Part shown: in pieces, positions 12,155 through 63,091 of the stretch
How positions within the stretch are numbered: position 1 is the stretch's first letter
Layout of the letters: every line of letters starts with the position of its first letter
DNA from: an uncultured Bacteroidales bacterium
Lineage (GTDB): Bacteria; Bacteroidota; Bacteroidia; Bacteroidales; WCHB1-69
Length of the DNA: 64,000 bases
Assembly (NCBI GenBank): GCA_900315705.1
Contig: ONAB01000006.1
Span: forward strand, 48,744-112,743
Direction: 5' to 3'
The notes under the pieces: model-generated
Seen by the model: only the letters and a program-made list of their open reading frames with translations
Told to the model about the DNA's origin: nothing
Database searches by the model: none
Program-made: the position numbers and the translations under genes

Positions 12155-12979
12155 TCCGTAACAGATGATGACGGGCTGGAGATAGAGGTTTGGTATGCCC
12201 GAGAGTTGCAACAGGTGTTGGGATATTCCCGATGGGAAAATTTCGTGACCGCTATCGGACGTGCTATGCAATCGTGCAAAACATTGGGTGTCAGTATCGA
12301 CGATCATTTTCGTGAGGTCACGAAAATGATAAATTTAGCTAAGGGAGCCCAACGGGAAGTGCAGGACTTTATGCTTACCCGCTATGCCTGCTATCTTATT
12401 GCCCAAAATGGCGATCCGAAGAAGGACGAGATAGCCTTCGCCCAAAGCTACTTCGCCGTGCAAACTCGCAAAATCGAACTCATTGAAGAAAGACTCCGTC
12501 AACTTTCACGTATCGAGAGCAGGGACCGGTTACGTGCATCTGAGAAACAGCTGAGCAAAAACATTTACCAGCGCGGTGTTGACGAAAGAGGGTTCGGGCG
12601 TATCCGTTCAAAAGGAGACCAGGCTCTTTTTGGCGGTCTCACCACCGAACAAATGAAGCAACGATTGGGCATCAAAAGCGGAGCCTTGGCTGATTTTCTC
12701 CCCACACTTACCATTGCTGCTAAAAACCTTGCAACGGAGATGACCAACCATAATGTAGAACAGAAAGATTTGTATGGGGAAGCTGGCATCACGACGGAAC
12801 ATATGCAAAACAACACGAGTGTCAGGGGAATGCTGGGACAACGGGGGATCAAACCGGAAGAACTTCCTCCCGCTGAGGACATAAAGAAAGTGGAACGCAA
12901 GGTGGCAAAAGATGAGAAACAGTTGCAGGAGAAATCGCAGAGGCTGCCGAAAGAGATAGATTCTTCGAACAACCAATAA
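12155..12979 (+). pseudogene. dinD: DinD-like DNA damage-inducible protein, 5'-truncated
   Basis: From residue 1 of the open frame the sequence matches DinD: WYARELQQVLGYSRWENF (BRO-N-type domain), then REVQDFMLTRYACYLIAQNGDP and a helical C-terminal part. DinD homologues modulate RecA filaments and often travel with mobile elements. Normal proteins have roughly 10-20 more N-terminal residues and a Met start. Here the frame runs back without a start codon to the stop of the preceding T9SS gene (TAA 12152-12154). A TTG at 12206 is the only nearby start, and it would remove the conserved N-terminus. I read it as truncated by recombination; the rest has no stops and may be recent. Confidence 0.75.
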
Positions 12980-13013: not shown

Positions 13014-13739
13014 ATGAAAACCACCAAAATAGAATAGACCGACAAAACTTGGAATCCAGTTACGGGCTGTACCAAGATTTCACCAGGGTGTGCTCACTGC
13101 TATGCCGAAGTGATGACAAGAAGGTTAAAGGCAATGGGACTGGAAAAATATGCCAACGGTTTTGATGTGACATTACACGAAGAATGCCTTGGCGAGCCCT
13201 TGACTTGGAAACAGCCGCACACCATCTTTGTTTGCTCAATGAGCGACCTGTTTCACAAAGATGTTTCATTCGATTTTGTGGACAAGGTGATGAACACCAT
13301 TCGTCTTACGCCCCAGCACCGCTATCAATTATTGACTAAACGGGCTGAACGGATGGCAGAATACTTCCTCACACACGATGTTCCGGGAAATGTTTGGTTG
13401 GGGGTGACTGTGGAAGCACAATCTTCCAAATCCCGTATTGATTGCTTGCGTGTGTTGGATGCACCTATCCGCTTCCTTTCGTGCGAGCCACTCATCGAAG
13501 ATTTAGGTGAGCTGGACTTGAGCAACATCAACTGGGTGATTGTGGGTGGCGAGAGCGGTCCGCAAGCTCGCCCGATGAAAAGAGAGTGGATAGATTCCAT
13601 TCAAGAACAAACCGAAGCGCAAGGCAGCCTGTTCTTTTTCAAACAATGGGGCACCTGGGGCAGCGATGGCGTTAAACGAAGCAAACACAAAAACGGAAAT
13701 TTGATTGACGGCAAAATGTTACAGGCGATGCCGGTGTAA
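13014..13739 (+). pseudogene. DUF5131 (phage Gp37/Gp68-like) protein with amber stop at codon 8
   Basis: The ATG at 13014 opens MKTTKIE, then TAG at 13035-13037, then TDKTWNPVTGCTKISPGC and a full-length DUF5131 protein to 13739. Relatives read IEWTD at this point, so the stop is explained by a single TGG to TAG change. The Cys pattern GCTKISPGCAHCYAE resembles a radical-SAM-type cluster motif; the family is phage and mobile-element associated, function unknown. The downstream 234 codons are intact. Internal initiation (for example ATG at 13110) would delete the cysteine motif, so the gene is probably inactive unless the amber is read through. Confidence 0.85.
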
Positions 13740-13862
13740 TAGCATTATTATGCTAAATTAGCATATCCATAGACCTTTTCTTCAGTTTTAGTGAAAGAAA
13801 AAACTGGCAATCAGAACAAAACCCGTTTCTGCTGATTCCTGCACGAACAAGCAAAAACGGGT
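13740..13862 (+). other. Series of three hairpins after the DUF5131 gene
   Basis: Three inverted repeats follow each other: TAGCAT/ATGCTA (13740-13755); CAGTTTT/AAAACTG around 13784-13808; and a longer one with ACCCGTTT (13821-13828) plus TGCT pairing with AGCA plus AAACGGGT (13855-13862). None has a T run, so they are not simple terminators. No protein frame is visible. Confidence 0.5.
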
Positions 13863-13913
13863 AATCATAAAAGGCATATTGTACGATGCAAAATACCATA
13901 ATTATATTTTTTG

Positions 13914-13921
13914 TATTTTTG
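13914..13921 (+). promoter_or_regulatory. -7 promoter element upstream of the structured leader
   Basis: TATTTTTG in an AT-rich stretch. It is the only good match between the DUF5131 gene and the methyltransferase, so it probably drives the leader RNA and the operon behind it. Confidence 0.6.
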
Positions 13922-13992
13922 CAGCGATAATTGTCTTTTTTAGATTAGTTTTTGTTAGTAATATGATACTTATTTGATTTAGATGAAATGTT

Positions 13993-14131
13993 GAACATCC
14001 TCGATTAGGCTGATATACCAGAATTAGGACCTCGGGGACACGTCAGTTAGACATAACACGGATGTTCGCGCTCAAATAAATGGGCGTGGGCTGATTGTTG
14101 TCTGACGTGGGCCGTCCTAAGCCCTGGTATA
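13993..14131 (+). ncRNA. Candidate structured RNA with long multi-helix hairpin and pseudoknot
   Basis: One long hairpin can be drawn from three perfect helices: TATACCAG (14014-14021) with CTGGTATA (14124-14131); TTAGGAC (14024-14030) with GTCCTAA (14114-14120); CACGTCAG (14039-14046) with CTGACGTG (14102-14109). An inner helix with G-T pairs, CGCGCTC with GGGCGTG, closes loop AAATAAAT. In addition GAACATCC (13993-14000) is exactly complementary to GGATGTTC (14060-14067) inside the hairpin, a possible pseudoknot. No family that I know (retron msr-msd, tmRNA, RNase P, riboswitches) fits. It lies between a promoter element and the methyltransferase start. Confidence 0.6.
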
Positions 14132-14143
14132 ACCAATCTCTTC

Positions 14144-14184
14144 CGCGCCCTCTTTTTTAACAACGAAGGGCGTTTTCGCGCCCC
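14144..14184 (+). promoter_or_regulatory. Possible attenuator before the methyltransferase start
   Basis: Two identical CGCGCCC segments (14144-14150 and 14177-14183) flank one GGGCG (14168-14172), which can pair with either. TTTTTT at 14152-14157 follows the first copy. The second copy ends 3 bp before an ATG at 14187, so pairing there would hide the start region. This is the layout of a mutually exclusive RNA switch; its function is inferred. Confidence 0.45.
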
Positions 14185-14198
14185 ATATGGAAGAGGAT

Positions 14199-15548
14199 AT
14201 GCCAAAAAAAATATATAAATTTATAGATTTATTTGCTGGACTAGGAGGGTTCCATTTGGCCTTGCAATCTTTGGGATGCAAATGTGTTTTTGCATCAGAG
14301 ATACAGCAAGATTTACAGGAGTTGTATGCCACTAACTATGGGATGAAATGCGAGGGAGATATAAACACTATAGATGTAACTAAAATTCCAAAGCATGACA
14401 TTCTTTGTGGAGGCTTCCCGTGCCAACCATTCTCCCAAGCCGGGAAACAACAAGGTTTCCAGGATGATAAAGAACGTGGTAATTTATTCTATCGAATAAT
14501 GGATATTTTGGAACACCACAAACCCGAATATGTTTTTTTAGAGAATGTTCCAAATCTAAAATCGCATGATGGAGGAAATACATATAGTGTAATTTACGAC
14601 AAACTATCTCAATATTATGATGTGAAAGATGAAATTCTATCTCCTCATTATTTTGGTATTCCACAGCATCGTACTAGAATATACATTGTTGGCAGATTAA
14701 AATCATTAGGGGGATTAACTGACTTTTCATTTCCTGAACGAGAAGAACCTTATACAGGAAGTATAAACGATATTATCATTCCTGAGGACACTGACTTTAT
14801 GTCACTACGTGATATCACAAGAGTTCATCTGGAAGTATGGCAACAATTCCTGAATCTACTTTCAGAACATAAACAACCGCTACCGACATTTCCTATATGG
14901 GCAATGGAGTTTGGTGCCAATTATGATTTTGAAGGCGCAGCTCCGTACTATCAAAAGACCAAGCAACTGGAAGGAAAAAGAGGTGCTTTTGGTGAAGAAA
15001 TACAAGGATACTCTAAAGATGATTTTTTACGTTGTCTTCCTAGTTATGCACAATCTAAACCTACCAAGGTTGTAAACAGACAATTCCCCGAATGGAAAAA
15101 ACAATTTATACGATGGAATAGAAAGTTCTATCAAGACAATAAGGATTGGCTAGACGAATGGATACTATCAATTCGTCAAAATGGCTTTGAAAATAGTCAT
15201 CAAAAATTCGAGTGGAATTGTGGATCTGAGGAAAATCCCACTTTGTATAACAAGATCATACAATTTAGACCATCTGGCATACGCGTTAAATTACCCACGT
15301 ATTCTCCGGCTTTAGTGTTGAATACCACACAGATTCCAATATTACCTTGGGTGAAAACGCCCGATGGTCAAAAAGGAAGATATATGACGCGGCGTGAAGG
15401 CGCAAAGTTACAATGTATGGAGAATCTTAAAGAATATCCTGATACAATAGCCAGAGCATTCAAGGCATTTGGTAATGCTGTGAATGTAGAGGTTGTTAAG
15501 CGAATTGCAATCAATCTTTTAAAGACAAAAGACAATGGAACAAAATAA
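14199..15548 (+). CDS. DNA (cytosine-5)-methyltransferase
   Basis: Methylates cytosine in a specific site; in this context it should protect self DNA. Ordered motifs are clear: FIDLFAGLGGFHLAL (I), GGFPCQPFSQAG with the catalytic Cys (IV), FLENVPNL (VI), QHRTRIYIVG (VIII), a target-recognition region in the middle, and AFKAFGNAVNVEVV (X). I prefer the ATG at 14199, preceded by AAGAGG; an in-frame ATG at 14187 is also possible. About 449 residues. It overlaps the ATPase gene by 14 bp. Base composition is AT-rich compared with the flanks, which points to transfer. Confidence 0.93.
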   Translation: MPKKIYKFIDLFAGLGGFHLALQSLGCKCVFASEIQQDLQELYATNYGMKCEGDINTIDVTKIPKHDILCGGFPCQPFSQAGKQQGFQDDKERGNLFYRIMDILEHHKPEYVFLENVPNLKSHDGGNTYSVIYDKLSQYYDVKDEILSPHYFGIPQHRTRIYIVGRLKSLGGLTDFSFPEREEPYTGSINDIIIPEDTDFMSLRDITRVHLEVWQQFLNLLSEHKQPLPTFPIWAMEFGANYDFEGAAPYYQKTKQLEGKRGAFGEEIQGYSKDDFLRCLPSYAQSKPTKVVNRQFPEWKKQFIRWNRKFYQDNKDWLDEWILSIRQNGFENSHQKFEWNCGSEENPTLYNKIIQFRPSGIRVKLPTYSPALVLNTTQIPILPWVKTPDGQKGRYMTRREGAKLQCMENLKEYPDTIARAFKAFGNAVNVEVVKRIAINLLKTKDNGTK

Positions 15549-17082
15549 AATAGAAAGAGTGTCCATTGCATTGAAGCCCAATGTATATAACACTTTCCGC
15601 AACTTGGTCAACACCGTTTCCAACACTCTCGGAGAGTATGTAGATAATGCTGTGCAAAGTTTCTTAGATAATAAAGATCAAATAGCCTCTGTTGAACCCG
15701 GGTACAAATTGGTAATAGAAATACGTGTGGATTGGACAGAACGTAATATAACAATTACGGACAATGCTGCTGGCATTGGGTACAAAAACTACGAGAGGGC
15801 TTTTGAACCTGCACATATTCCTCAGGACAATACAGGTCTAAATCAATTTGGTATGGGTATGAAAACCGCCTCTGTATGGCTGGCGGATAATTGGTGTGTA
15901 TATACAAAGGCCTTTGGAGAAGATGTGGAAAGATATACGGAATTTGATTTGAAAAAAGTGACTTCAGAAGGACGAGAGGATTTATTGGTAAAAGAAACGC
16001 CAAAAGATAAGACAGATCACTATACTAAGATTGTATTGTACAATTTGTCCAAAAACGCCCCTTCAATAAACCAAATGGACAAAATAAGGAGACATTTGTC
16101 TAGTATTTACAGAAAGTTTTTAAGAACTAACGAGATTGAGATAATAGTAAATGGTGAAAGACTTGAGGCTCCAAATTATGAGATACTGAAGGCACCATAC
16201 TATAAAGATCCACATGGCAAGGAGATTGAATGGAAGAAGGATATTGATTTCCATATGGGTGAATATAAGGCGAAAGGTTTTATTGCTATTTTAAGTAAAA
16301 TTCAAAATAACGCCAACGGTTTGGTCTTAATGCAACGAGGTCGTGTTATAGTTGGCGGAGGTGAAGAACGCTATTTTCCGAGTGTTATCTTTGGACAATC
16401 TGGTAGTTTTAGATATAGAAGGCTGTTTGGAGAATTGGAATTAGAAGGATTTGAGGTTACTTTTAACAAAAACGGATTTAGGGATGAAGAGGATTTGTAT
16501 GCGTTTATGGAAGCCTTACGTGACGAACTAAAGTCCAGCGATTTTAATTTATTGGGGCAAACCGACAATTATCGTCAACGGGCCAAGGAAGAACAGACGG
16601 CAATTTCACATAAAATAAAGAAGAATCTGGTCAAAGAGGATTCTCCCAAGAAACTCACAAGACATGTTCAGAATGTTGCTAATAACATTCTGAACACACA
16701 ATATATAGAAAAAACAGAAAGTGCTATCAAGAATGCGAAGCCGATAGATAGCCATACTGAGCCTTTCGTATTGAACAATAAAAACTACAATCTACGTATA
16801 GAAATGGTAACCGAGAGTGCAACAGATGCTTTATATTCTGTCATACGAGAAGAAACTCCGTCTCTTTTTGATACGGCAGATACAATCTCCATTGTTTGTA
16901 AAATCAATTTGGCTCATCCTTTTTTCACTAGATACGAACAGTTTAAAAAAGGGAATGATTATATGCCAATTATATCCATCTTTAAAGCTTTAACGTTAGC
17001 TGAAATAATGGCGCCAGAAAATGGAACAAAATATGCATCAAATATTAGATTACTTTTTAATCAGTATATTATTCAGCAATAA
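15535..17082 (+). CDS. MORC-like GHKL ATPase
   Basis: A 515-residue GHKL (Hsp90/MutL/histidine kinase fold) ATPase. The N box LGEYVDNA is at residues 32-39 (Glu34, Asn38), the G1 box DNAAGIG at 76-82 and the G2 box GMGMKTA at 106-112. This matches prokaryotic MORC-type ATPases that Iyer, Abhiman and Aravind described beside Z1 helicases and methyltransferases in restriction-modification gene sets. It may couple ATP-driven dimer closure to DNA handling. The start overlaps the methyltransferase by 14 bp and the Z1 gene follows after 8 bp, so all are one operon. Confidence 0.88.
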   Translation: MEQNKIERVSIALKPNVYNTFRNLVNTVSNTLGEYVDNAVQSFLDNKDQIASVEPGYKLVIEIRVDWTERNITITDNAAGIGYKNYERAFEPAHIPQDNTGLNQFGMGMKTASVWLADNWCVYTKAFGEDVERYTEFDLKKVTSEGREDLLVKETPKDKTDHYTKIVLYNLSKNAPSINQMDKIRRHLSSIYRKFLRTNEIEIIVNGERLEAPNYEILKAPYYKDPHGKEIEWKKDIDFHMGEYKAKGFIAILSKIQNNANGLVLMQRGRVIVGGGEERYFPSVIFGQSGSFRYRRLFGELELEGFEVTFNKNGFRDEEDLYAFMEALRDELKSSDFNLLGQTDNYRQRAKEEQTAISHKIKKNLVKEDSPKKLTRHVQNVANNILNTQYIEKTESAIKNAKPIDSHTEPFVLNNKNYNLRIEMVTESATDALYSVIREETPSLFDTADTISIVCKINLAHPFFTRYEQFKKGNDYMPIISIFKALTLAEIMAPENGTKYASNIRLLFNQYIIQQ

Positions 17083-17090
17083 CAACAATC

Positions 17091-19277
17091 ATGGAAATAC
17101 AGGTTATTAATAATGGCAATAGTACTTCGTCTTTTGTCCCTATAATAGGAGAAAGGACTACTGAGTTGTTAGAACGTTTATCTCAAAAATTAGATGCTGA
17201 TGAAATTGAGATTTTAAAGAAAGAAACATCAGAAATCCTCTCTTATTGCTCTAATCCTCATTCGTCAGAAGTTCAGTCTGTCACAAATCTAGTAGTCGGC
17301 TATGTACAAAGTGGCAAGACAATGTCTTTTACAACATTATCTGCAATGGCTGTAGATAATGGTTTCCGAATGATAATCTATTTCGCTGGGACAAAGAACA
17401 ATCTGCTTGACCAAACTACCAAACGTTTGCGTAAGGATTTAATGAGTACAGGACATAATATGCAATATTATAAATTACACGAAAACCCTAATAGAAACGA
17501 CATTCAGCGTATTGACAATGAGTTGAAAATTCAGCGTGTAAAGCCTGTGATTCTTGTAACAGTTCTCAAGAACGCACAACATATCAATGAATTAGCCGAG
17601 ATATTATGTTCTCAACAATTGCAGAACACCCTTGGAAAACAAGGTGTCTTGATTATTGACGATGAGGCCGATCAGGCAAGTCTTAATGGGTACGCTTACA
17701 AAAACAGCAAGGCAGAAGAATGGGAGGATGACGAATATACCGCAACATATAGCAGCATACTTAGGTTAAAGAGCAAACTTCCCAATCATTCGTATATCCA
17801 GTATACCGCAACGCCGCAAGGTCCATTGTTGATAAACATTGTTGATTTACTTTCCCCAAAACATCATACTGTATTAACTCCTGGCAAAAAATACACAGGT
17901 GGCAAGACCTTCTTTAAAGACGAGCCGGGGTTGATTATTACTATTCCTGATAGTGAAGTATATCACAGCCGACGAAACAATTTAACAGAGTGTCCCCAAT
18001 CTTTGGTAAAAGCACTTCAATTACATTTAATGTCGGTTGCAATTGTTGTTCGAATTCAACAAAAGGAGCCTTATCTTTCAATGATGGTTCATGCTGACAA
18101 AGAACAGGATGCAAGTGAGAAATTCTATAATTGGGTTGCAAATCTAATTCAGACATGGGCTTCAATGATTGAGGTTTCAAAACAAGATTTGGCATATCAA
18201 GAAATTTATCTGTCATTTAAGCAAACATACCCAGAAGCCATTAAGGAGTATCAGTCGCATAATGAGGTCTATCCTACGTTTGATGAAATCTGGAAGGAAT
18301 TGCCAGACATTGTTCATGACACTAATATTGCTCTTTTAATAAGTCGCAATAAAACAAAAGATATTGATTGGAGTTGTAGCCCGTCACATATTTTGGTAGG
18401 GGCAGAAATGTTGAACAGAGGTTTTACTGTTGACCGACTCGCAATTACGTATATGCCTCGTCATAGTATTGGAAAGTCAACTGCTGATACAATACAACAA
18501 CGGTGCCGTTTCTTTGGATACAAACGCAATTATCTATACTCTTGTCGTGTTTTCTTACCTGAAGACACCATATTAGAATACGTTGATTATGTAGAACATG
18601 AGGAGGAAATGAGGAATTGGCTAAAGGATAATAAGGATATAACCAAAGTTGAACAACTTCTTATAATATCACCTCATCTAAACGCGACAAGAAGGAATAT
18701 CTTATCAAAGAATACTGTTACAACTAAATTGAATGGATGGCGTCAGATGAACACTTTTCAGTGTATTGACGAGAACACTCATTTGGTACAAAATTTTGTC
18801 AAGAATCATTCTTTTACTTTATTCAATGACTATAATACAACCGACAGAAATCACCGATATATAAAACTATCCATATCAGAGGTTATTAAGTTTTTGTCAG
18901 AATATAAATGTCAAAATATGCCAGACAGTGCCAGGAAACAAGCTACTTTAAGGTATTTGAACTATTTGTCACAAAGTGGTCATCATCCACTTCAATATGC
19001 ATACATTATACAGATGGCCTACGAAGGAGAAGCCCGAGAACGTTCCTTTGACCCAGAGACACAGCGGGTGAAAAACCTGCATAGTGGTCGTTCGAATTCG
19101 GGAGCCCAAACATATCCTGGTGACCAACAGATTCGTTTTGAAGATTCGATTTGTATTCAAATTCACTATGTCAAATTGAAGTGTAATTCTATGCAATGGT
19201 GCAATGTCAAGGCATACACATTGGCAATATATTATCCGGAAGACTTTGCAATCAATTATGTTAATACAGAAAAGTGA
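17091..19277 (+). CDS. Z1 domain-containing superfamily helicase/ATPase
   Basis: A 728-residue Z1 protein, the motor candidate of the system. The P-loop-like VVGYVQSGKT is at residues 68-77, the acidic Walker B box LIIDDEADQAS at about 187-197, and QYTATPQGP is a motif III-like TAT box. The Z1 hallmark LNRGFTVDRLAI followed by DTIQQRCRFFGYKRNY (arginine-finger region) lies near 440-485. Family members are found with MORC ATPases and PD-(D/E)XK nucleases in defence loci. It lies 8 bp behind the ATPase and 1 bp before the DUF4420 gene. Confidence 0.9.
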   Translation: MEIQVINNGNSTSSFVPIIGERTTELLERLSQKLDADEIEILKKETSEILSYCSNPHSSEVQSVTNLVVGYVQSGKTMSFTTLSAMAVDNGFRMIIYFAGTKNNLLDQTTKRLRKDLMSTGHNMQYYKLHENPNRNDIQRIDNELKIQRVKPVILVTVLKNAQHINELAEILCSQQLQNTLGKQGVLIIDDEADQASLNGYAYKNSKAEEWEDDEYTATYSSILRLKSKLPNHSYIQYTATPQGPLLINIVDLLSPKHHTVLTPGKKYTGGKTFFKDEPGLIITIPDSEVYHSRRNNLTECPQSLVKALQLHLMSVAIVVRIQQKEPYLSMMVHADKEQDASEKFYNWVANLIQTWASMIEVSKQDLAYQEIYLSFKQTYPEAIKEYQSHNEVYPTFDEIWKELPDIVHDTNIALLISRNKTKDIDWSCSPSHILVGAEMLNRGFTVDRLAITYMPRHSIGKSTADTIQQRCRFFGYKRNYLYSCRVFLPEDTILEYVDYVEHEEEMRNWLKDNKDITKVEQLLIISPHLNATRRNILSKNTVTTKLNGWRQMNTFQCIDENTHLVQNFVKNHSFTLFNDYNTTDRNHRYIKLSISEVIKFLSEYKCQNMPDSARKQATLRYLNYLSQSGHHPLQYAYIIQMAYEGEARERSFDPETQRVKNLHSGRSNSGAQTYPGDQQIRFEDSICIQIHYVKLKCNSMQWCNVKAYTLAIYYPEDFAINYVNTEK

Positions 19278-19278
19278 T

Positions 19279-20265
19279 ATGAAAAAACAGACCCTATACG
19301 AACTATTTGTTGAACTTCAACAGAGAGAAAAACCTGTTGAAGGCTATTATGCCGCAGTTTCATTACCGTTTAACAAAAAGTACAAAATTGGCATTACAGA
19401 AGATGGTTATCCTATTTTTTTTGTTCCAAGTACATCAACCACCTTTTCTGTTGACATTAATATGGAAATGATAACTGTGTTGTTTGGTAGAGTTTGCAAA
19501 ATTTATGATACAAGTTGTTCTGAAAACATATACACAATCATTACTCTAAAAACAGGAGATATTGACATTCAGAAATATTTTGTCGACATCGTATGTATTA
19601 TTTTGGAACAGTTGCCAGCAAATTATTCTGACATAACTTTAGCCAAAGAGATACAGAAACTTGTAAATTTGTTTAGTCAACTTTCACAACCACCACGAAA
19701 AACAATACAAGGATTGTGGGCAGAATTGTTATTAATAGAGCAATCAACGGATCCTAATTACTTAATCAGATCTTGGCATATCGATGTGAATGACAAGTAT
19801 GATTTTAATGATGGGAAAGATAAACTAGAGGTTAAAAGTACTACTCTCCCACAAAAGATACATAGTTTCTCAATAGAACAATTGAACTCTAACAACAACT
19901 CTAATCTAATAATTGCTTCAATAAATACTTCATTTGTTGGTCAAGGGGTTAACATTTTTGAACTAAAGGACCGAATCTGTAACAGAATACAGGATTTACA
20001 GATTCAATATCGTCTAAATGAAGTAATCATCAAAACTATTGGAAATGATATTTCCAAGGTTTCCGAAATGTACCTAGATTATCAGTCAGCAGTAGACAGT
20101 ATAGCATACTTTGATGCCAAGGACATTCCAAGCATCAGCACAGAAAATATCCCGGTTGGTGTTAACAATGTCCATTTTGATTCTGATTTATCAGGAATTC
20201 CTTCTATAGATTCTTCTCGGATTATTGATTATCAAAGTGAATTATTTAATTGTATTCGATTATGA
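19279..20265 (+). CDS. PD-(D/E)XK motif protein (DUF4420)
   Basis: A 328-residue nuclease candidate. The PD-(D/E)XK-type core is visible as GLWAELLLIE (Glu150), KYDF (Asp175) and LEVKS (Glu184, Lys186). DUF4420 proteins accompany Z1 and MORC genes and are thought to be the cutting subunit of this restriction system. The ATG at 19279 starts 1 bp after the Z1 stop; a longer upstream frame would overlap that gene. The stop overlaps the next ATG by 4 bp (ATGA). Confidence 0.85.
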   Translation: MKKQTLYELFVELQQREKPVEGYYAAVSLPFNKKYKIGITEDGYPIFFVPSTSTTFSVDINMEMITVLFGRVCKIYDTSCSENIYTIITLKTGDIDIQKYFVDIVCIILEQLPANYSDITLAKEIQKLVNLFSQLSQPPRKTIQGLWAELLLIEQSTDPNYLIRSWHIDVNDKYDFNDGKDKLEVKSTTLPQKIHSFSIEQLNSNNNSNLIIASINTSFVGQGVNIFELKDRICNRIQDLQIQYRLNEVIIKTIGNDISKVSEMYLDYQSAVDSIAYFDAKDIPSISTENIPVGVNNVHFDSDLSGIPSIDSSRIIDYQSELFNCIRL

Positions 20266-20951
20266 GAGCAGATAGAATTTTCCCAGAGACTCTTCAACAG
20301 TTAATACTTGATGTTTTACAAAAGACACCAAAGTTTATATATCTGAGTGGTGTGCAGCCATTTCTAATGAAGTATAACGATAAGTCATACTTTGTATATG
20401 TAAAAAATCTATCTTCTGCCTATTTCCGTGAGAGACCGGATACCACACGTGCCCAACTACCTATTAAAGAAGAATTTGAAGAAATTAAAAAATCACCATA
20501 TCCTTTTGTTTTCTTGGGATATGACCAAGATAACGATGTGTTAGTGTGCTGGAATTATCACGTCGTTAAACAGAGGCTGAATGCAGCCAAAAGTGTATCA
20601 TTCTATTCTCGCAAGTTTTTCCAAGAAGAGGTTGTTGAGGGGGAGTTGCTACAAAAAAGATTAAAAAATGGAGATGAGCCAGTTTTGTTTAAACGTAAAG
20701 ACATTGCTTTATTTTTTGACAGAATCGAAACAATCTTCAGCAATTCAACCGACGATGTTTGTTCTCCTAAAAAGGAGAAAATCACGGAAATCACAGATGA
20801 GGAATTGATATCTAAACTAAAGCCTTTATTGAATACAGAAACTCCCCATACGTTGGAAGCGATAAAAGTAGCGGAACAACACTATAACGGAAAATATTCG
20901 AAGATGAGACTTAAGGACTGGGCCGCACTGGTGAAGCGACTTATGTATTAA
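20262..20951 (+). CDS. Unrecognised operon protein, possible restriction accessory
   Basis: A 229-residue protein coupled to the DUF4420 gene through an ATGA overlap. I do not recognise the family with certainty. The first part has alternating strands (PKFIYLSGVQPFLMKYNDKSYFVYVKNL, split as two strands) and the phrase PFVFLGYDQDNDVLVCWNYH followed by SVSFYSRKFFQ. I recall similar phrases in N-terminal domains of some restriction enzymes, but this is from memory. A linker rich in Lys and Glu leads to a C-terminal helical unit of about 60 residues (LLNTETPHTLEAIKVAEQHY...WAALVKRL) that could bind DNA. No catalytic motif is evident. Confidence 0.75.
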   Translation: MRADRIFPETLQQLILDVLQKTPKFIYLSGVQPFLMKYNDKSYFVYVKNLSSAYFRERPDTTRAQLPIKEEFEEIKKSPYPFVFLGYDQDNDVLVCWNYHVVKQRLNAAKSVSFYSRKFFQEEVVEGELLQKRLKNGDEPVLFKRKDIALFFDRIETIFSNSTDDVCSPKKEKITEITDEELISKLKPLLNTETPHTLEAIKVAEQHYNGKYSKMRLKDWAALVKRLMY

Positions 20952-21065
20952 TAAGACAATATAAACATATGACACTATCATAATAATTACCAATAAGATA
21001 AGAATTATTACCATTGATTAGAATAGACTTTGTCTTTTTATTATATATCTTATAATTATTTGATT

Positions 21066-21377
21066 ATGAAACACATCATTCTTAAAATTGGCGATTCATC
21101 TTTAAACAGAAAAGTAACTATCGTTGACGAAGACAGATTATGTTATCTTGTAAAATCTATTAGCAGAGGAGCAAGTGGAATCAGAACTATTTCAAAAGCT
21201 TTATTGAAAGAGTTCGTGTCATATTTAGAAAAGAATCCTGGAGCAACGCCAAGAGAAACTCGCTATGCTTTAAGTGGGAAAAGTGAAATAGATAAATATG
21301 AATATGGTTACGAATCAACGTTGCATATCTTGGCAAAGATGATTTTAGGATTGGAGAGGATTGTTCCTTCTAAATAA
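21066..21377 (+). CDS. Small hypothetical protein at the end of the defence operon
   Basis: A 103-residue protein starting at ATG 21066, 114 bp behind the previous gene. It has no signal peptide or membrane segment. It is basic and mostly helical in its C-terminal half, with KALLKEFVSYLEKNPGATPR and an HILAKMILGLERI helix. Codon use and AT content match the operon upstream rather than the GC-richer genes that follow, so it probably came with the island. Function unknown. Confidence 0.6.
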   Translation: MKHIILKIGDSSLNRKVTIVDEDRLCYLVKSISRGASGIRTISKALLKEFVSYLEKNPGATPRETRYALSGKSEIDKYEYGYESTLHILAKMILGLERIVPSK

Positions 21378-25974: not shown

Positions 25975-26550
25975 ATGACCGACATAATGACACCCCAGCA
26001 GCGGCACTACTGTATGTCGCGGATCCGCAGCAAGGACACCACGCCCGAGAAGCGAGTGCGGCAGTGGCTGTGGAAACACGGCTATCGCTACCGCCTCAAC
26101 GTGAAGGGCGTGCCGGGGAAACCTGACATCGTGATGCGCAAGTACCGGACGGCGATTTTCGTGAACGGGTGTTTTTGGCACGGACACGATGTTGTGTGGT
26201 CTTCCGTAAAGACGGGGCGCGCCCCGTCTCTACAAATCGAGAATTCAGCCTGTTGCAAAATACCGAAGACGAATCGGGATTTTTGGGTGGCGAAAATCCG
26301 GCGGAATCAGGAAAGGGATCAGAATAACTATGAGATCCTCTCCGAGAATGGGTGGCAGGTGATTGTGCTTTGGGAGTGTCAGCTGAAGCCCAAGAAACTG
26401 GAGCAGACGATGCGCGAGGTGGAGGTGGCGCTCCAAGACTACTACCTTCGTACTTTCAGTCGCAAAGCAAAACCCTACATCCATATTGACGAGGAGGAGA
26501 TGCTGCCGATGGTGGCGGAAGACCCCGAAGAGTATGGACTAAACCTTTAA
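25975..26550 (+). CDS. vsr: Vsr-type very-short-patch repair endonuclease with repeat insertion
   Basis: Vsr nicks beside T-G mismatches left by deamination of 5-methylcytosine. The 191-residue protein has MTPQQRHYCMSRIRSKDTTPE, the catalytic PD at 50-51, GCFWHGHD at 65-72 and PKTNRDFWVAKIRRN from 97. Between HGH and PKTN there are about 17 extra residues, and this insert is the 28-bp palindrome at 26206-26233 plus flank, translated in frame (SVKTGRAPSLQIE). The zinc-site cysteine that should follow HGHD is displaced to Cys93/94. Whether the enzyme still works is open. It precedes a MutT and a nuclease gene. Confidence 0.88.
   Translation: MTDIMTPQQRHYCMSRIRSKDTTPEKRVRQWLWKHGYRYRLNVKGVPGKPDIVMRKYRTAIFVNGCFWHGHDVVWSSVKTGRAPSLQIENSACCKIPKTNRDFWVAKIRRNQERDQNNYEILSENGWQVIVLWECQLKPKKLEQTMREVEVALQDYYLRTFSRKAKPYIHIDEEEMLPMVAEDPEEYGLNL
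26206..26233. repeat. 28-bp palindromic repeat, copy 1 (inside vsr)
   Basis: GTAAAGACGGGGCG joined to its reverse complement with one mismatch. Same family as 31048-31075 and 46691-46718. It lies wholly within coding sequence and keeps the frame. Confidence 0.88.
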
Positions 26551-26971: not shown

Positions 26972-27952
26972 ATGGAGAACCAAGAATCCTACAACGACTT
27001 TAAGAAAAGAATATACAACTACCTTTCAAAAGATAAAGACATTAAATATGGAGATGTAATATTTGAACCCATAAAAGAAATTATAACTGAAATACAACAT
27101 AGCAAGTTTGCTTTTAAGCCACACCGGATGGCAGAAGCTAATCACATAGCTAGTTCTCAAACGGCTTGCCTCAATCTTTTTATCCCGATTTTGAATAGTA
27201 CTAGCGTCAACTCTATTCTTAAAGCATCTGGAGTTGCTCCTTCTGATTTTGACAAGATTGATAGAACTTCCTTGTTGAATGGTTACCGCATTGAATTTTG
27301 GGATTCCACAGACATCACAAAAAAGGGATTATTAGGTGATCACAGTAAAACAGCAGGTACTGATTCAGATATAGCCATTGCCTATCGTGACCTAAATGAT
27401 GAGTTATGTCTATGGCTTATTGAACATAAATTGACAGAAAAAGAGTTTACCCCTTGCGGTGGATATCGAAGTAAAAACTTAAATAACACAACTGAACGCA
27501 AGAAAGGCTGCGAAACATCCTCTATCGAAGATATATGTCATAATCCCAATATATGCCATTATGCGTGCTATTGCCACTACGAATATTGGAATATTATGAA
27601 TACGATGGGAGGGAAAGAGTTCTTCTCGGGCAATTATGATAAGAGTAAAGGTTGTCCATTTAGAAACGGAATGAATCAGTTGTGGCGAAACCAACTTTTG
27701 GCGTTAGCTTTAGAAAAACAAGGCACATATAAAAAGGTGTATTTTTCAGTGGTTCTTCATCCTGAAAACACTTTTTTGAATGATACAATGCAACACTACG
27801 AGGAACTAACTAATCATTCCTCAAAGTTCAGCTATTTTACTTCAGACAAACTTGTTGAGGCCGCAACTATTGACCATACGTTAAAAGATTGGGTCAACTG
27901 GTATAAGGAAATGTATTATGGCTTAAAAAAAGAAAAAGCAGTTGATAGATAA
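26972..27952 (+). CDS. PGN_0703-like putative restriction endonuclease
   Basis: A 326-residue protein with a PD-(D/E)XK-like core: GTDSDIAIAYRD near residues 129-140 and ELCLWLIEHKLTEKEF near 145-160 supply Asp and Glu-X-Lys. This fits the PGN_0703-type nuclease-like family as I remember it. A cysteine-rich stretch follows (CHNPNICHYACYCHYEYW, residues 188-205, and GCPF), which may bind zinc or an Fe-S cluster. It is AT-rich compared with its neighbours, which suggests transfer. It follows the second MutT by 20 bp. Confidence 0.7.
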   Translation: MENQESYNDFKKRIYNYLSKDKDIKYGDVIFEPIKEIITEIQHSKFAFKPHRMAEANHIASSQTACLNLFIPILNSTSVNSILKASGVAPSDFDKIDRTSLLNGYRIEFWDSTDITKKGLLGDHSKTAGTDSDIAIAYRDLNDELCLWLIEHKLTEKEFTPCGGYRSKNLNNTTERKKGCETSSIEDICHNPNICHYACYCHYEYWNIMNTMGGKEFFSGNYDKSKGCPFRNGMNQLWRNQLLALALEKQGTYKKVYFSVVLHPENTFLNDTMQHYEELTNHSSKFSYFTSDKLVEAATIDHTLKDWVNWYKEMYYGLKKEKAVDR

Positions 27953-27968
27953 GACAAAAATAACACCT

Positions 27969-29174
27969 ATGAGCATTGCTGTCTATACCCTCACCTCTAC
28001 CCTGCACGACTCACAGGCGGTGGATACACTCACAGAAGAGTTTCTAACCTCCTTGAATGTCCCATACATTCTGAAAGGAGACGATTTTTCGGACTACGGT
28101 TCCCACGACTTGGACTTGATTTTCGTGCGGACGGGTGGCACCGAAGGCCTCTTTCAGCAACTGATGCCAACATTAGCCGGGAAATCGGAGGCTCCGTTCT
28201 ATCTTCTGGCTTCCGACAAGAGCAACTCGTTAGCCGCCTCACTAGAAATTCTCTCCTACCTGCAGCAACAGGGAAAACGAGGCGAAATCCTGCACGGAAA
28301 TCCCGAACACATCGTCTCTCGCATCCAGATACTGTGTCGGGTGGAAGTGGCTATCAAGCGGTTGCGCCAGTGCCGACTCGGCATCATCGGCAAACCGTCC
28401 GATTGGCTCATTGCCAGCCACGCGGATGCAGATGTCGTTCGGAAGAAACTAGGCATAGAATTGTTGGAGATTCCTATGAGCGAACTGTTGGATACATTGT
28501 CCGCAACTCCGGAATCTGTGCCTACGGAACATTGCGATATACCAGCAGTCAATGAGGCATTGCCCGATGCTTACCGCATCTATGAGGCATTGAAAAACGT
28601 GGTGCAAAAATACGATCTGCAAGGGTTTACAATCCGTTGTTTCGATTTGTTGGATGCTGTCCACAATACCGGCTGCTGGGCGTTGGCGAAGCTGAACGCG
28701 GAAGGTTATATTGCAGGTTGCGAGGGCGATGTTCCCACTATGCTGACTATGATGCTGCTCCGCGCCCTGACCGGCACGTCCTCTTTCCAAGCGAACCCCG
28801 CCAGCATCCATCCCGAAACGGGCGAAATCCTCTTCGCCCACTGCACCATCCCTTTTGATATGGTGCCTCACTATGAATTAGACACGCATTTCGAATCGGG
28901 AATCGGGGTGGGCATACGCGGTTTCGTTCCGGAAGGACCTGTCTCAATTTGCAAAGTTTCGGGAGATTTGTCACGGGCGTTCATCGCGGAAGGGAAACTG
29001 ATTCGCAGTCAGGTAAAACCGGACCTCTGCCGCACGCAGTTAGTGGTGCGTCTCGCAAACCCGTCCGAAACCGAATACTTTTTGACAAATCCTATTGGGA
29101 ATCACCACATTATCGTAGTCGGACAGCACGCAGAAGCACTGAAAGCGTTGTTACGGAGAATAAATATTTTCTGA
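27969..29174 (+). CDS. L-fucose/L-arabinose isomerase-like protein
   Basis: A 401-residue protein starting at ATG 27969, just after the nuclease gene. The N-terminal half is alpha/beta (LIFVRTGGTEGLF, LGIIGKPSDWLIAS). The second half has EGDVPTMLTMMLLRALTG, which resembles the metal-site region of fucose isomerase-fold proteins, and HYELDTHFESGIGVGIRG. A sugar isomerase function is an inference from fold; several such proteins are uncharacterised. Its TGA stop is the first codon of repeat copy B. Confidence 0.7.
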   Translation: MSIAVYTLTSTLHDSQAVDTLTEEFLTSLNVPYILKGDDFSDYGSHDLDLIFVRTGGTEGLFQQLMPTLAGKSEAPFYLLASDKSNSLAASLEILSYLQQQGKRGEILHGNPEHIVSRIQILCRVEVAIKRLRQCRLGIIGKPSDWLIASHADADVVRKKLGIELLEIPMSELLDTLSATPESVPTEHCDIPAVNEALPDAYRIYEALKNVVQKYDLQGFTIRCFDLLDAVHNTGCWALAKLNAEGYIAGCEGDVPTMLTMMLLRALTGTSSFQANPASIHPETGEILFAHCTIPFDMVPHYELDTHFESGIGVGIRGFVPEGPVSICKVSGDLSRAFIAEGKLIRSQVKPDLCRTQLVVRLANPSETEYFLTNPIGNHHIIVVGQHAEALKALLRRINIF

Positions 29175-50886: not shown

Positions 50887-51573
50887 TTATTGTGCAGTGA
50901 AAGAAGCAAAATGATCTTTTATCCGTTCATAACAATGAAAATATGCCATTTGTTGTCCGTATTGCTTTGTATGTAAAATCGGAATAAGTTTCTGACCTGT
51001 ATTCAGATGATATGTTACTCCGCATATTTCTAAAAAAGGATGATCACTTTGATTAACAGCCTCATAGTATGGGGGATGATTGTTAATACCTTTTTCCTTT
51101 GGCTTTGCCTTGACCAAATAGTCCGTATTGGTTTGATATAATCCAAAAAATTGCAACCAGTAATTGACTTGTTGTGACATAGGGAAAATATACTCTATTG
51201 TAGTCTGTTGACAAATAATTGAATAAATTCATTCAAATCCATTTTTTGCAATAGATTCAGGGATTAAGACTGTTTTACCTTTAGGAGCATAAGGTAAAGA
51301 TTCATTACATAGATTCGTAACATAGATTTTATCTGCTTTATATTTGTTGTTTGTAATTTCGAGCACTTGTCCAATACTTTTTGTTGCAAAATCAAATTTC
51401 TTTTTTTCTGAACCTTTTTTAGGTTTGTCATCAAAATAATAATCAGAAAAAAGAGCATAATTGGCAATGGTGTCAGATGATTGCAAACGAGGATCATGTC
51501 CAATAAGTAATACTTTGGGATTTACCCCTTTTTCAATAAAAGGATTCCAATCTTTACAATAATTGTCATTCAT
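50887..51573 (-). pseudogene. Uracil-DNA-glycosylase-like protein split by an in-frame TGA
   Basis: Two frames, 51573-51229 and 51180-50887, are in the same phase. Only one TGA (51231-51229) and 16 open codons (IYSIICQQTTIEYIFP) separate them. Together they give about 228 residues. VLLIGHDPRLQSSD and YVTNLCNESLPYAPKG resemble the UDG superfamily as I remember it; the second part ends in AYFHCYERIKDHF. The AT-rich composition differs from hcp next to it, so this may be acquired DNA. Either one nonsense mutation inactivated the gene or the first part alone is made. Confidence 0.55.
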
Positions 51574-51620
51574 AACTTAATATTCTTTATAACAGCCAGT
51601 AACTGACTAAATCAATACAA

Positions 51621-53306
51621 TTATTTCCTAATCACCTCCCACCGTCCGCCTTTGGCAGGGCCAATGTGCCGGATGATTCCGTTGTCCTTCAGCCATTTGA
51701 TGTTTTTCTCCATCGCCGTCGTGCTCATGCCTAACAATTCCGCCAATCGGCGTGTCGATATGGACGGGTTTTGGATGAGACAGCGGATGATGGTCATGCG
51801 GTTTTCACCCAACTTTTCACCCAACCTATCATCGGAGTTTTCACCCAACTTTTCACCCAACCTATCGCCCGAATTTTCATCTTGCACCTTTGGGTTTTCT
51901 TCAACGATTTCCCAATGGCCGCCTTTGTCTGGGCCGACACGAGAAACGATGCCTTGTATTTGCATTTTCTTTATGTGAATCTGTACGTTACGAGAGGCAA
52001 TGGATAATTCTTTAGCAATTTCCTTAGCCGAAATTGATGGCTTTTGCCTCATCAATTGAACGATCTTGACTTGTGTTTCCGAAAGATTTTCTACGATGTT
52101 TTCTACGATGTTTTCTACGATGCTTTTCTGGGACGTTTCTCCGTAGTTTTCACCCAACCTGTTTCCGCCTTGCTCTTGTGTCTCGTTTTCGTTGAATAGG
52201 GCACTCTTCAAAGCGGCGAAATGCACACGCAAGCCTGTTCCAAGCAATTCGTACCTCGGCTTTGCAGCACCTAGGTCGGTGCAGGCATTGCAGATTTTCT
52301 GTATGCCGCGCCCCCAAGTCTCGATGTAGCCGGCATAATAGAAAGCATTGGCGATGTTTTCGTTGTAGGGTATCGATTCGTGTGGTTCCATCAAGGTTTC
52401 CACTGTCCAGTTTTCGGGCAAGATGCAGCGGTTGCTGATGATGATGGCCTCGTCCTCGATGCGGATTTGTATGGGCGTGCCAAACATGTAGCAGTTGTGG
52501 GCAATGGCGTTGTAAACCGCTTCGCGTATAGCATCGCGTGCAAACGGATAGGTCTCAACTCTCCTGTCGTGTTCGTAGGTGATTTTCGCCTTCAAGTATT
52601 TCAGGTAAATCAGGTCTATCACCTTATCGGCAATCTTGATGAGCGAATCCTCCAACACATCCTGATAGAGCAAGTCGGCATTGCCGCTGAAACGGCCTAT
52701 CTTCACATAGCTGCCCACTTGGACCCGACTCGGGTCGCTGTGGAAAAGCAACACTGCCGAGCGTTTCAGTTTGCCGTCGGCCATCAGGTGGAGTTTGTTC
52801 AACAATTCCTCGTTGGAAATGTCCAAATCCTCCTGGGTCATTCGCTTGCTTCTCAAGGCTTCGCGACGGAATATCTTGAAGCTGTCGCCGTCGAGGTCGT
52901 CAACCGTAACGTCGTCAATGGTGACATCCTCCCAACGGAACCCTATCCTGCGCATAATGAATGCCGAAAGTGCATTTCCTGTCAACAACTGCTTGGTGCT
53001 GCCACTGCGATAATGGAACTCGCCGTGATAACTGACAGGGAAGGCACTGGGTTCGACTTTTATCGCGATATAGTCCTTACCGTCCTTCTCCAAAAGACTG
53101 ACTTCAGGCATGATTCCCAATCCCGCTTGCACTTGGTTGGGAATGTCCTCCATCAGTTTCTTCGCATTGGGCAGACCCACAATGTCGCCTTTGTCGTTGA
53201 CACCGACATAGATGGTCCCGCCTTGCGCATTGGCAAAGCCACAAAGCCATTTCAGGTACTCTGTCCGCCACGATTCCTTATATTCTATGTTCTGGTTTTC
53301 CGCCAT
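51621..53306 (-). CDS. AlbA_2 (Schlafen-like) ATP-binding transcriptional regulator
   Basis: A 561-residue protein of the putative transcriptional regulator group. An AlbA_2 domain at residues 1-115 (EYKESWRTEYLKWLCGFANAQGG) leads to a HATPase_c_4 region (FARDAIREAVYNAIAHN, then YIETWGRGIQKI) and two winged-helix domains, each ending in a GPxKGGxWEV motif. The linker between the domains holds short tandem repeats (IVEN three times; a 12-residue RLGEKLGEN unit twice). The ATG at 53306 fits a TACCTTTG element at 53328-53335. Relatives are common in mobile and defence regions; DNA target unknown. Confidence 0.82.
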   Translation of the reverse strand: MAENQNIEYKESWRTEYLKWLCGFANAQGGTIYVGVNDKGDIVGLPNAKKLMEDIPNQVQAGLGIMPEVSLLEKDGKDYIAIKVEPSAFPVSYHGEFHYRSGSTKQLLTGNALSAFIMRRIGFRWEDVTIDDVTVDDLDGDSFKIFRREALRSKRMTQEDLDISNEELLNKLHLMADGKLKRSAVLLFHSDPSRVQVGSYVKIGRFSGNADLLYQDVLEDSLIKIADKVIDLIYLKYLKAKITYEHDRRVETYPFARDAIREAVYNAIAHNCYMFGTPIQIRIEDEAIIISNRCILPENWTVETLMEPHESIPYNENIANAFYYAGYIETWGRGIQKICNACTDLGAAKPRYELLGTGLRVHFAALKSALFNENETQEQGGNRLGENYGETSQKSIVENIVENIVENLSETQVKIVQLMRQKPSISAKEIAKELSIASRNVQIHIKKMQIQGIVSRVGPDKGGHWEIVEENPKVQDENSGDRLGEKLGENSDDRLGEKLGENRMTIIRCLIQNPSISTRRLAELLGMSTTAMEKNIKWLKDNGIIRHIGPAKGGRWEVIRK

Positions 53307-61479: not shown

Positions 61480-62079
61480 TCACTTTAACTTCTCGTAAAA
61501 CTTGTCAGTGTTGACCAATACGATAGTCGCTTTGTTGAGGGCACCGTTTTTGCGCAAATTGGCCTTGACCGTCTCGATGGCCGACTTTGAGATTTTTGGA
61601 AGCATATTGGTCCAAAACACCACAATCAGATACTCGGAATCGTCGTTGATTCCGTAAATGTCTCTGATTTTCGACAGATTCTGCATTTGCGGAGTGATGG
61701 GGACGGCTGACACAGGCGGGAACGTTTCAAACCGTTGGTCCGTATTCCAGTTCAGGTTGGAGAGCCCGCCCTTTGCCGTGCAGTTGATGTGATAGGAACG
61801 GAGCAAATCCTTTTTGAAGTAGAGGATTTGAACTGGCTGGACAGCAGTCTGATGTTGCCATAAACTGTCCTGAATATACGTCCGGTAAGCGTCAAACTGC
61901 TCATAATCACTAACTATATGGCTGATTTTGTAATCTTGGTCCAAGACGGAAGTAATCATCAGATCATAATCTTTCTGGTCAAACTGTTTTAAGGGTTTGT
62001 AACCGTACAGCAATCCACAGCCTGTCAGCAGAATCGCAATGGCAAGGCACAAGATGGCAATATGGCTTTTATTCTTCAT
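61480..62079 (-). CDS. Hypothetical lipoprotein
   Basis: A 199-residue lipoprotein; ATG 62079 opens MKNKSHIAILCLAIAILLTGC with the lipobox Cys at 21. The mature part is mixed alpha/beta (VQILYFKKDLLRSYHINC, EYLIVVFWTNMLPKISK). No family recognised. TATCTTTG at 62107-62114 is its promoter element. Confidence 0.65.
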   Translation of the reverse strand: MKNKSHIAILCLAIAILLTGCGLLYGYKPLKQFDQKDYDLMITSVLDQDYKISHIVSDYEQFDAYRTYIQDSLWQHQTAVQPVQILYFKKDLLRSYHINCTAKGGLSNLNWNTDQRFETFPPVSAVPITPQMQNLSKIRDIYGINDDSEYLIVVFWTNMLPKISKSAIETVKANLRKNGALNKATIVLVNTDKFYEKLK

Positions 62080-62239
62080 AATCCAGCAATGATTATTTGG
62101 ATGCTGCAAAGATAATCTTTTTAAAATGTGGGGTTGTTGTTTGGGGTGTAAATAATTACATTTTTTTAAATATTTACCAGCACTTGATTTGCTATAATTA
62201 AAAAAAATATTATTATTTAGTTATGAAATATAAAATATT

Positions 62240-62247
62240 TATATTTG
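62240..62247 (+). promoter_or_regulatory. -7 promoter element of the KilA-N gene
   Basis: TATATTTG in a very AT-rich stretch, 43 bp before the ATG. Confidence 0.5.
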
Positions 62248-62290
62248 CATAGTATAATAAACAAAAAAAATAATTTATAACTTATTGAAC

Positions 62291-63091
62291 ATGGCAAAGA
62301 TAAAAGTTGAAGAAACGGAGATTTCGGTGATTCAAGTCAAAGAAATGGACTATATTTCATTGACAGATATGGCGAAAAGCCAATTTCAGGAACATATCAT
62401 TTTTAAATGGTTGAGCCTGAAAAGCACTATTGAATATGTGGGCGCGTGGGAAATGTTATATAATCCTAGTTTTAATTGTACCGAATTCGGTATAATTAAA
62501 AATGCTGCCGGCAGCAACAATTTTGTTCTTTCAGTCAAGCATTGGATAGAATGTACAAATGCAGTTGGAATAGTTGCCAAAGCCGGACGTTATGGTGGAA
62601 CTTACGCCCATAAGGACATCGCATACCATTTTGGTATGTGGATAAGCCCACGATTCCAATTGCTCTTGGTCAAAGAGTACCAGACGCTTCAAGAAGAAAA
62701 GCAGAAACAGTTGGGATGGACGGCGAATCGCGAATTGGCAAAAATAAACTACCACATTCACACACATGCTATCAAGCAGAATTTGATACCGGCAGAGATT
62801 ACACCGCAACAGCAGGCCTTCATTTATGCAGAGGAGGCTGATGTGCTGAATGTTGCTTTGTTTGGAATGACAGCAAAGCAGTGGCGGGATGCTAACCTCG
62901 GTTTGCACGGAAATATTCGCGATTACGCCACAATCAATCAACTGATTTGTCTCGTCAATCTTGAGAATCTCAATTCAGTATTCATTTCAGAGGGAATCTC
63001 TCAAGAAGAGCGATTGTTGAGACTCAACAGATTAGCTATCTATCAGATGACGATTCTGGAGGAGACAGGCGGACGCAAGATGTTGAAATAA
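62291..63091 (+). CDS. KilA-N domain protein
   Basis: A 266-residue protein with the KilA-N DNA-binding domain typical of phages and mobile elements: DYISLTDMAKSQ, IIFKWLSLKSTIEYVGAWE, NPSFNCTEFGIIKNAAG, then TNAVGIVAKAGRYGGTYAHKDIAYHFGMWISPRFQLLLVKEYQTL in short parts. A C-terminal helical region of about 120 residues follows. ATG 62291 is used. Its AT-rich leader and lone position suggest a mobile origin; it may act as a DNA-binding antirepressor-like protein. Confidence 0.88.
   Translation: MAKIKVEETEISVIQVKEMDYISLTDMAKSQFQEHIIFKWLSLKSTIEYVGAWEMLYNPSFNCTEFGIIKNAAGSNNFVLSVKHWIECTNAVGIVAKAGRYGGTYAHKDIAYHFGMWISPRFQLLLVKEYQTLQEEKQKQLGWTANRELAKINYHIHTHAIKQNLIPAEITPQQQAFIYAEEADVLNVALFGMTAKQWRDANLGLHGNIRDYATINQLICLVNLENLNSVFISEGISQEERLLRLNRLAIYQMTILEETGGRKMLK

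Follow-up and report, generated by a model that had tools for sequence, protein, structure and literature searches.

A structured leader RNA ahead of diverse restriction operons in an uncultured Bacteroidales bacterium and its relatives: a putative transcription attenuator

Analysis of a 64,000-nucleotide (nt) stretch from an uncultured Bacteroidales bacterium (assembly GCA_900315705.1, contig ONAB01000006.1, positions 48,744 to 112,743 of the forward strand; hereafter the window) revealed a structured leader RNA upstream of a five-gene restriction-modification operon. The leader is a member of a real RNA family that is tied to defence operons. Judged from predicted folds and their conservation among relatives, it is probably a portable transcription attenuator that keeps restriction operons switched off by default.

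A leader RNA family at the head of restriction operons

Searches with covariance model R1, in which a bit score of at least 52 was taken as a strong match, gave 22 strong leader copies including that of the window, one per genome, in related bacteria. In all 22 cases, restriction or defence-like genes lie just downstream in the same orientation. The operons are of about 17 types, including HpaII, EcoRII, DpnII, EcoO109I, NgoFVII, McrBC, AIPR and Mza-like systems, and a DNA methyltransferase or restriction/McrBC gene is found in 20 of the loci, the other two being weaker cases. The hypothesis was formed on the first seven strong leaders; the 15 obtained in a later search fit the same pattern, one of them (L071) weakly. 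At class level, model R2 (seven candidates scored per genome) returned only the leader's own genome and one weak match (G688), and a repeat search at order level centred on G440 found no further places. No match to the leader was obtained by blastn against phages and plasmids (E≤0.01). A phage-borne RNA was rejected, as a pattern scan of IMG/VR gave three contigs with chance matches of at most 17.3 bits inside predicted coding frames.

The family is apparently undescribed, as judged by open-literature searches and Rfam 15. At gathering score no Rfam 15 family was found over the window leader, over 13 other matches (six strong, seven weak) or over the remaining 15 strong leaders, and in the scans of fetched leader regions only nearby tRNAs were reported. 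Among open PubMed Central (PMC) literature, no paper was recognised as describing such a leader. The accessible part of PMC2864571 lists the RNAs 6S-flavo and Bacteroidales-1 and does not mention the word 'restriction'.

Anatomy of the leader and the case for attenuation

The sequence-only reading had noted a structured leader, and this was borne out by the folding z-score (Table 1) and by a rod that covaries over the 22 copies. In the alignment of these leaders (21 of them distinct), which was fitted to the covariance model and therefore flatters the figures, 90.1% of 972 rod cells are paired and two-sided changes occur at 22 of 48 pairs. Neither value, nor the covariation score, was reached in any of 500 shuffles, and slid controls of the alignment were only 35-38% paired. 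G-U pairs occupy 120 of 1017 cells, which together with the covariation favours an RNA on this strand over a DNA signal. The internal loops show strong sequence conservation.

Table 1. Features of the leader and of the operon in the window (profile matches with E-values)
Feature	Position	Strand	Remarks
Promoter-like element TAnnTTTG (TATTTTTG)	13914..13921	+	80 nt 5' of rod
Structured leader RNA (rod, ~48 base pairs and internal loops)	13994..14138	+	z -4.8
Helix X, 5' strand AACATCC	13994..14000	+	possible partner 14060-14066
Helix X, 3' strand GGATGTT	14060..14066	+	
Strand A, apical hairpin	14064..14073	+	A:B pairs in predicted fold
Strand B, 3' arm of apical hairpin	14082..14091	+	partner A (rod) or C
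Strand C, terminator 5' arm	14143..14150	+	alternative partner of B
Strand D, 3' arm of terminator, with T-run	14166..14176	+	weak in window
C5-cytosine DNA methyltransferase	14199..15548	+	PF00145 4.6e-70; PCQ, ENV, QxRxR motifs
MORC-family GHKL ATPase	15535..17082	+	HATPase_c_3 7.6e-12; S5 motif GLVLMQRGRVI, residue 262
Superfamily II helicase	17091..19277	+	PF10593 3.3e-34; DTIQQRCRFFG, SGKT, DDEAD motifs
DUF4420 PD-(D/E)XK nuclease	19279..20265	+	PF14390 1.6e-27; D...EVK
MTaX1 protein, core component	20262..20951	+	PF20296 1.6e-25
103-residue orphan open reading frame (ORF)	21066..21377	+	apparently outside system

An exact TAnnTTTG, the Bacteroidetes -7 consensus, is present within 170 nt upstream of 19 of the 22 leaders, while 500 mononucleotide shuffles gave a mean of 2.3 and a maximum of 7. 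On the 3' side of the rod, a hairpin of 8-12 pairs stands directly before a T-run in 21 leaders when the tail is folded alone, and the likely first gene begins about 39-193 nt past the rod in all 22 loci. An intrinsic terminator is predicted between the promoter-like element and the first gene, in the window by the whole-leader fold only. In the whole-leader minimum free energy (MFE) structures of all 22, strands A and B pair at 5-7 of 7 positions, and strand C has downstream partners at 2-6 of 7 (6 in the window). Nine of the 22 leaders carry GCCC within 10 nt after the T-run of the terminator (14173-14183 in the window), and 13 carry GCC or more; this motif might offer terminator arm D another alternative partner.

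A promoter-like element of its own and a clear terminator in 21 of 22 cases could also belong to a free-standing small RNA that ends at this terminator and acts in trans, for example by sequestering a protein or RNA polymerase. Such an RNA would merely sit in defence islands, the operon being transcribed by read-through or from another promoter, and the long rod, reminiscent of 6S RNA, and the conserved internal-loop sequence would suit it. We consider it unlikely, because the likely first gene follows so closely in all 22 loci, because it is not evident what the pairing of B with C would do in a completed small RNA, and because no Rfam family covers any leader at gathering score. The 6S RNA itself was rejected: RF00013 was not found in the genome, and no 6S model was among the four matches up to E 5 in the region 13740-14260.

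In transcription attenuators and riboswitch expression platforms, a terminator competes with an antiterminator helix, and the leader resembles them in this arrangement. By default, A:B and the terminator (C:D) would form and transcription of the operon would stop after the rod. If B pairs with C instead, the 5' arm of the terminator would be engaged and transcription could read through into the operon. The conserved B:C helix is mutually exclusive with the terminator, as expected of an antiterminator, with modest statistical support beyond sequence conservation. Its pairs 1-7 are standard in all 22 leaders (154 of 154 cells), the eighth failing in ten, and two-sided changes are found in leaders L035 and L077. 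When the 5' half is folded in isolation, helix X (5-7 pairs) is part of the MFE structure in 21 leaders. For X and B:C together, the number of pairs with two-sided changes was matched by one of 500 shuffles and the covariation score by none.

Other measures weigh against an attenuator. For the same two helices, 52 of 500 shuffles reached the observed percentage of paired cells, 36 the count of further pair types and 14 that of cells changed on both sides; in the case of the rod, 10 of 500 reached the count of further pair types. All two-sided changes fall in B:C and none in helix X, which is missing from the MFE structure of the window's own 5' half. The window's tail is also the sole exception among the 22 in lacking a clear terminator hairpin when folded alone. 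The conservation of B and C is in part owed to A:B and C:D, and cognate B:C duplexes (mean -17.5 kcal/mol) have a small advantage over swapped ones (-16.8 kcal/mol; 180 of 5000 permutations equally good), which is modest support. Imposing the B:C helix raises the free energy by 15-31 kcal/mol over that of the unconstrained MFE structure in every leader, so that the on state would have to be reached by kinetic trapping or stabilised by a ligand. Attenuation by a leader peptide was rejected, as no conserved short ORF precedes the rod in the leaders. In 17 of the 22, a short frame within the rod starts at an ATG in the 3' strand of helix X; its first residues are MF and its ends vary, and coupling to translation is possible. 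Finally, nine weaker relatives of the leader (L033, L034, L037-L042 and L050) head other genes, with no D arm recognisable by eye. They mostly show a GCGTGG(G/A)CT...CACGCTT pattern, and the genes behind them are mostly small ones for predicted secreted proteins or lipoproteins, so that a wider superfamily of leader RNAs is possible; the RNAalifold structure of seven weaker relatives was poor.

The terminated fold predicted as the default would also be expected of an ordinary constitutive 5' untranslated region, in which a leaky terminator merely lowers expression of the operon without any switching, and low steady expression would suit restriction enzymes. However, B:C and X are conserved beyond the need of a fixed attenuating hairpin, and a conserved rod of about 145 nt far exceeds what a weak terminator requires, which makes this explanation quite unlikely. 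A transcription attenuator would appear well supported by the anatomy across the family, and less so by the weak terminator of the window.

Exchange of leaders between operons

Leader and operon recombine independently of each other. Leaders L015 and L066, which come from different families, are 98% alike and head unrelated operons, with no blastn match downstream, and L036 and L068 share leaders that are 97-98% alike and 1.1 kb of upstream sequence in front of unrelated operons. Conversely, the operon of L068 is 90-93% alike to those of L075 and L074 (for L075, 90% over 3.5 kb downstream), while the leaders are only 74% alike. Leader and operon are both in common in L074/L075 and in L078/L079. 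Between leader L014 (genome G016) and its present operon (18305), about 45 nt resemble by eye the start of a methyltransferase gene, as if one operon had been replaced by another. A further locus, L043, carries an HTH_3 gene ahead of the homologous restriction core, where the window has the RNA. Taken together, the mixing of leaders and operons, the L014 remnant and the HTH_3 gene of L043 suggest a control module in this RNA that can be exchanged. The four restriction cores homologous to that of the window all lack the leader; this counts against the attenuator reading, and a fixed partnership between the RNA and this core was rejected on the same ground.

Other genes recur near the leaders. 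Five strong leaders (L019, L053, L055, L058 and L064) have tRNA genes at most about 1.3 kb to their 5' side, as is seen at insertion sites of mobile islands. A gene for a Vsr mismatch endonuclease is found about 4.6 kb downstream in the window (25975-26550); vsr is the last gene of the leader-headed operons L070, L071, L078 and L079, and by eye it lies farther downstream in L066.

Such a pattern could also arise if the leader marked a chromosomal hot spot or recombination target for the exchange of defence operons, where a resident promoter and leader drive whatever arrives, as in an integron, and regulation is secondary. The same leader with different operons, the same operon with different leaders, the L014 remnant, the closing vsr genes and the upstream tRNA genes would all agree with this. 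A single site would be expected to share its surroundings, but at least 300 nt in common within 2 kb upstream were found only in L074/L075 and in L036/L068/L070/L073/L079; with only two such groups, about 17 distinct upstream contexts are present. Since the covariation and G-U pairs of the rod point to an RNA as well, we regard a hot spot as very unlikely.

Bro-N/RhuM-like genes were seen beside the restriction operons of the window (12206) and of L015, L035, L036, L073, L076 and L044, by eye except for DinD. Upstream of the window leader lies a DUF5131 gene (13014-13739) with an in-frame TAG as the eighth codon after its ATG (13035-13037); this gene and the DinD gene (12206-12979) suggest the edge of a defence island. 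Other stretches of low GC content (36-37%) at 27001-28000, 51001-52000 and 62001-63000 are possibly further acquired islands.

The window operon and its relation to known systems

With its five genes, the operon adds a new member to a predicted family of restriction systems. The tightly coupled block of methyltransferase, MORC ATPase, Z1 helicase and DUF4420 nuclease described from sequence alone was confirmed (profile matches in Table 1). Its assignment to a MORC restriction type predicted by comparative genomics held as well: the MORC S5 motif (GhXhhpXXRhl) is present, at the same place and with the same pattern in four homologues, as are the C-terminal helicase motif DThhQXuRhFG and the E-D-ExK of a restriction endonuclease (RE)-fold nuclease, with EVK at residue 184 and the E and D assigned by eye. 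The methyltransferase gene has a further in-frame ATG upstream (14187), and its product is the single PF00145 match in the genome at E≤1e-10. Of the two extra genes that had been proposed, the one for 229 residues encodes MTaX1, which closes the core in all four homologous loci. The 103-residue ORF is present in none of them and was rejected as a component; it gave one 46-residue match in the other 323 of the 324 genomes searched and none in plasmids.

In the third operon type described by Iyer, Abhiman and Aravind (2008; PMC2292703), MORC is combined with a helicase and an RE-fold nuclease. The window operon is alike in the MORC and helicase motifs, the PD-(D/E)XK nuclease and the cytosine methylase, and appears to differ in having MTaX1 as a fifth gene, here and in the four homologous loci, and a leader RNA in the window. 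Compared with Mza, the window proteins stay far below the equivalog cut-offs of the NCBIfam/PADLOC models (18.2 against 850 bits for MzaB, 126.5 against 1500 for MzaC and 27.5 against 420 for MzaD), and a scan of nine window proteins at E≤1 gave no AIPR (MzaE) match. In G016, an Mza-like operon that carries the same leader (L014) and an MzaE-like AIPR gene scores higher than the window and still below the cut-offs.

The known control of restriction systems works through a protein or an antisense RNA of the system itself. The leader resembles the controller (C) proteins and the antisense RNAs known from type II systems (PMC3874152) in its putative dedicated control of restriction operons, and it differs in being a predicted cis-acting structured RNA with a terminator; a small HTH_3 gene precedes the homologous core in L043. 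The words 'attenuation' and 'riboswitch' do not occur in the text of this review. From general attenuators and riboswitches the leader differs by its lack of an Rfam match and of a conserved short ORF before the rod, and by being common to unrelated defence operons.

As a tentative proposal, the leader could represent a first class of riboregulators dedicated to defence, in which a single RNA sensor, passed as a module among unrelated restriction systems, holds their transcription off until a common signal arrives. The signal might come from a phage taking over transcription, from a metabolite (for instance a methyl-donor product) or from arrival in a new host. One structured RNA heading about 17 operon types suggests a common, exchangeable control layer for bacterial immunity, and new defence operons may be found by using the leader as a marker. 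Should the signal be linked to phage, a common sensor would make restriction inducible.
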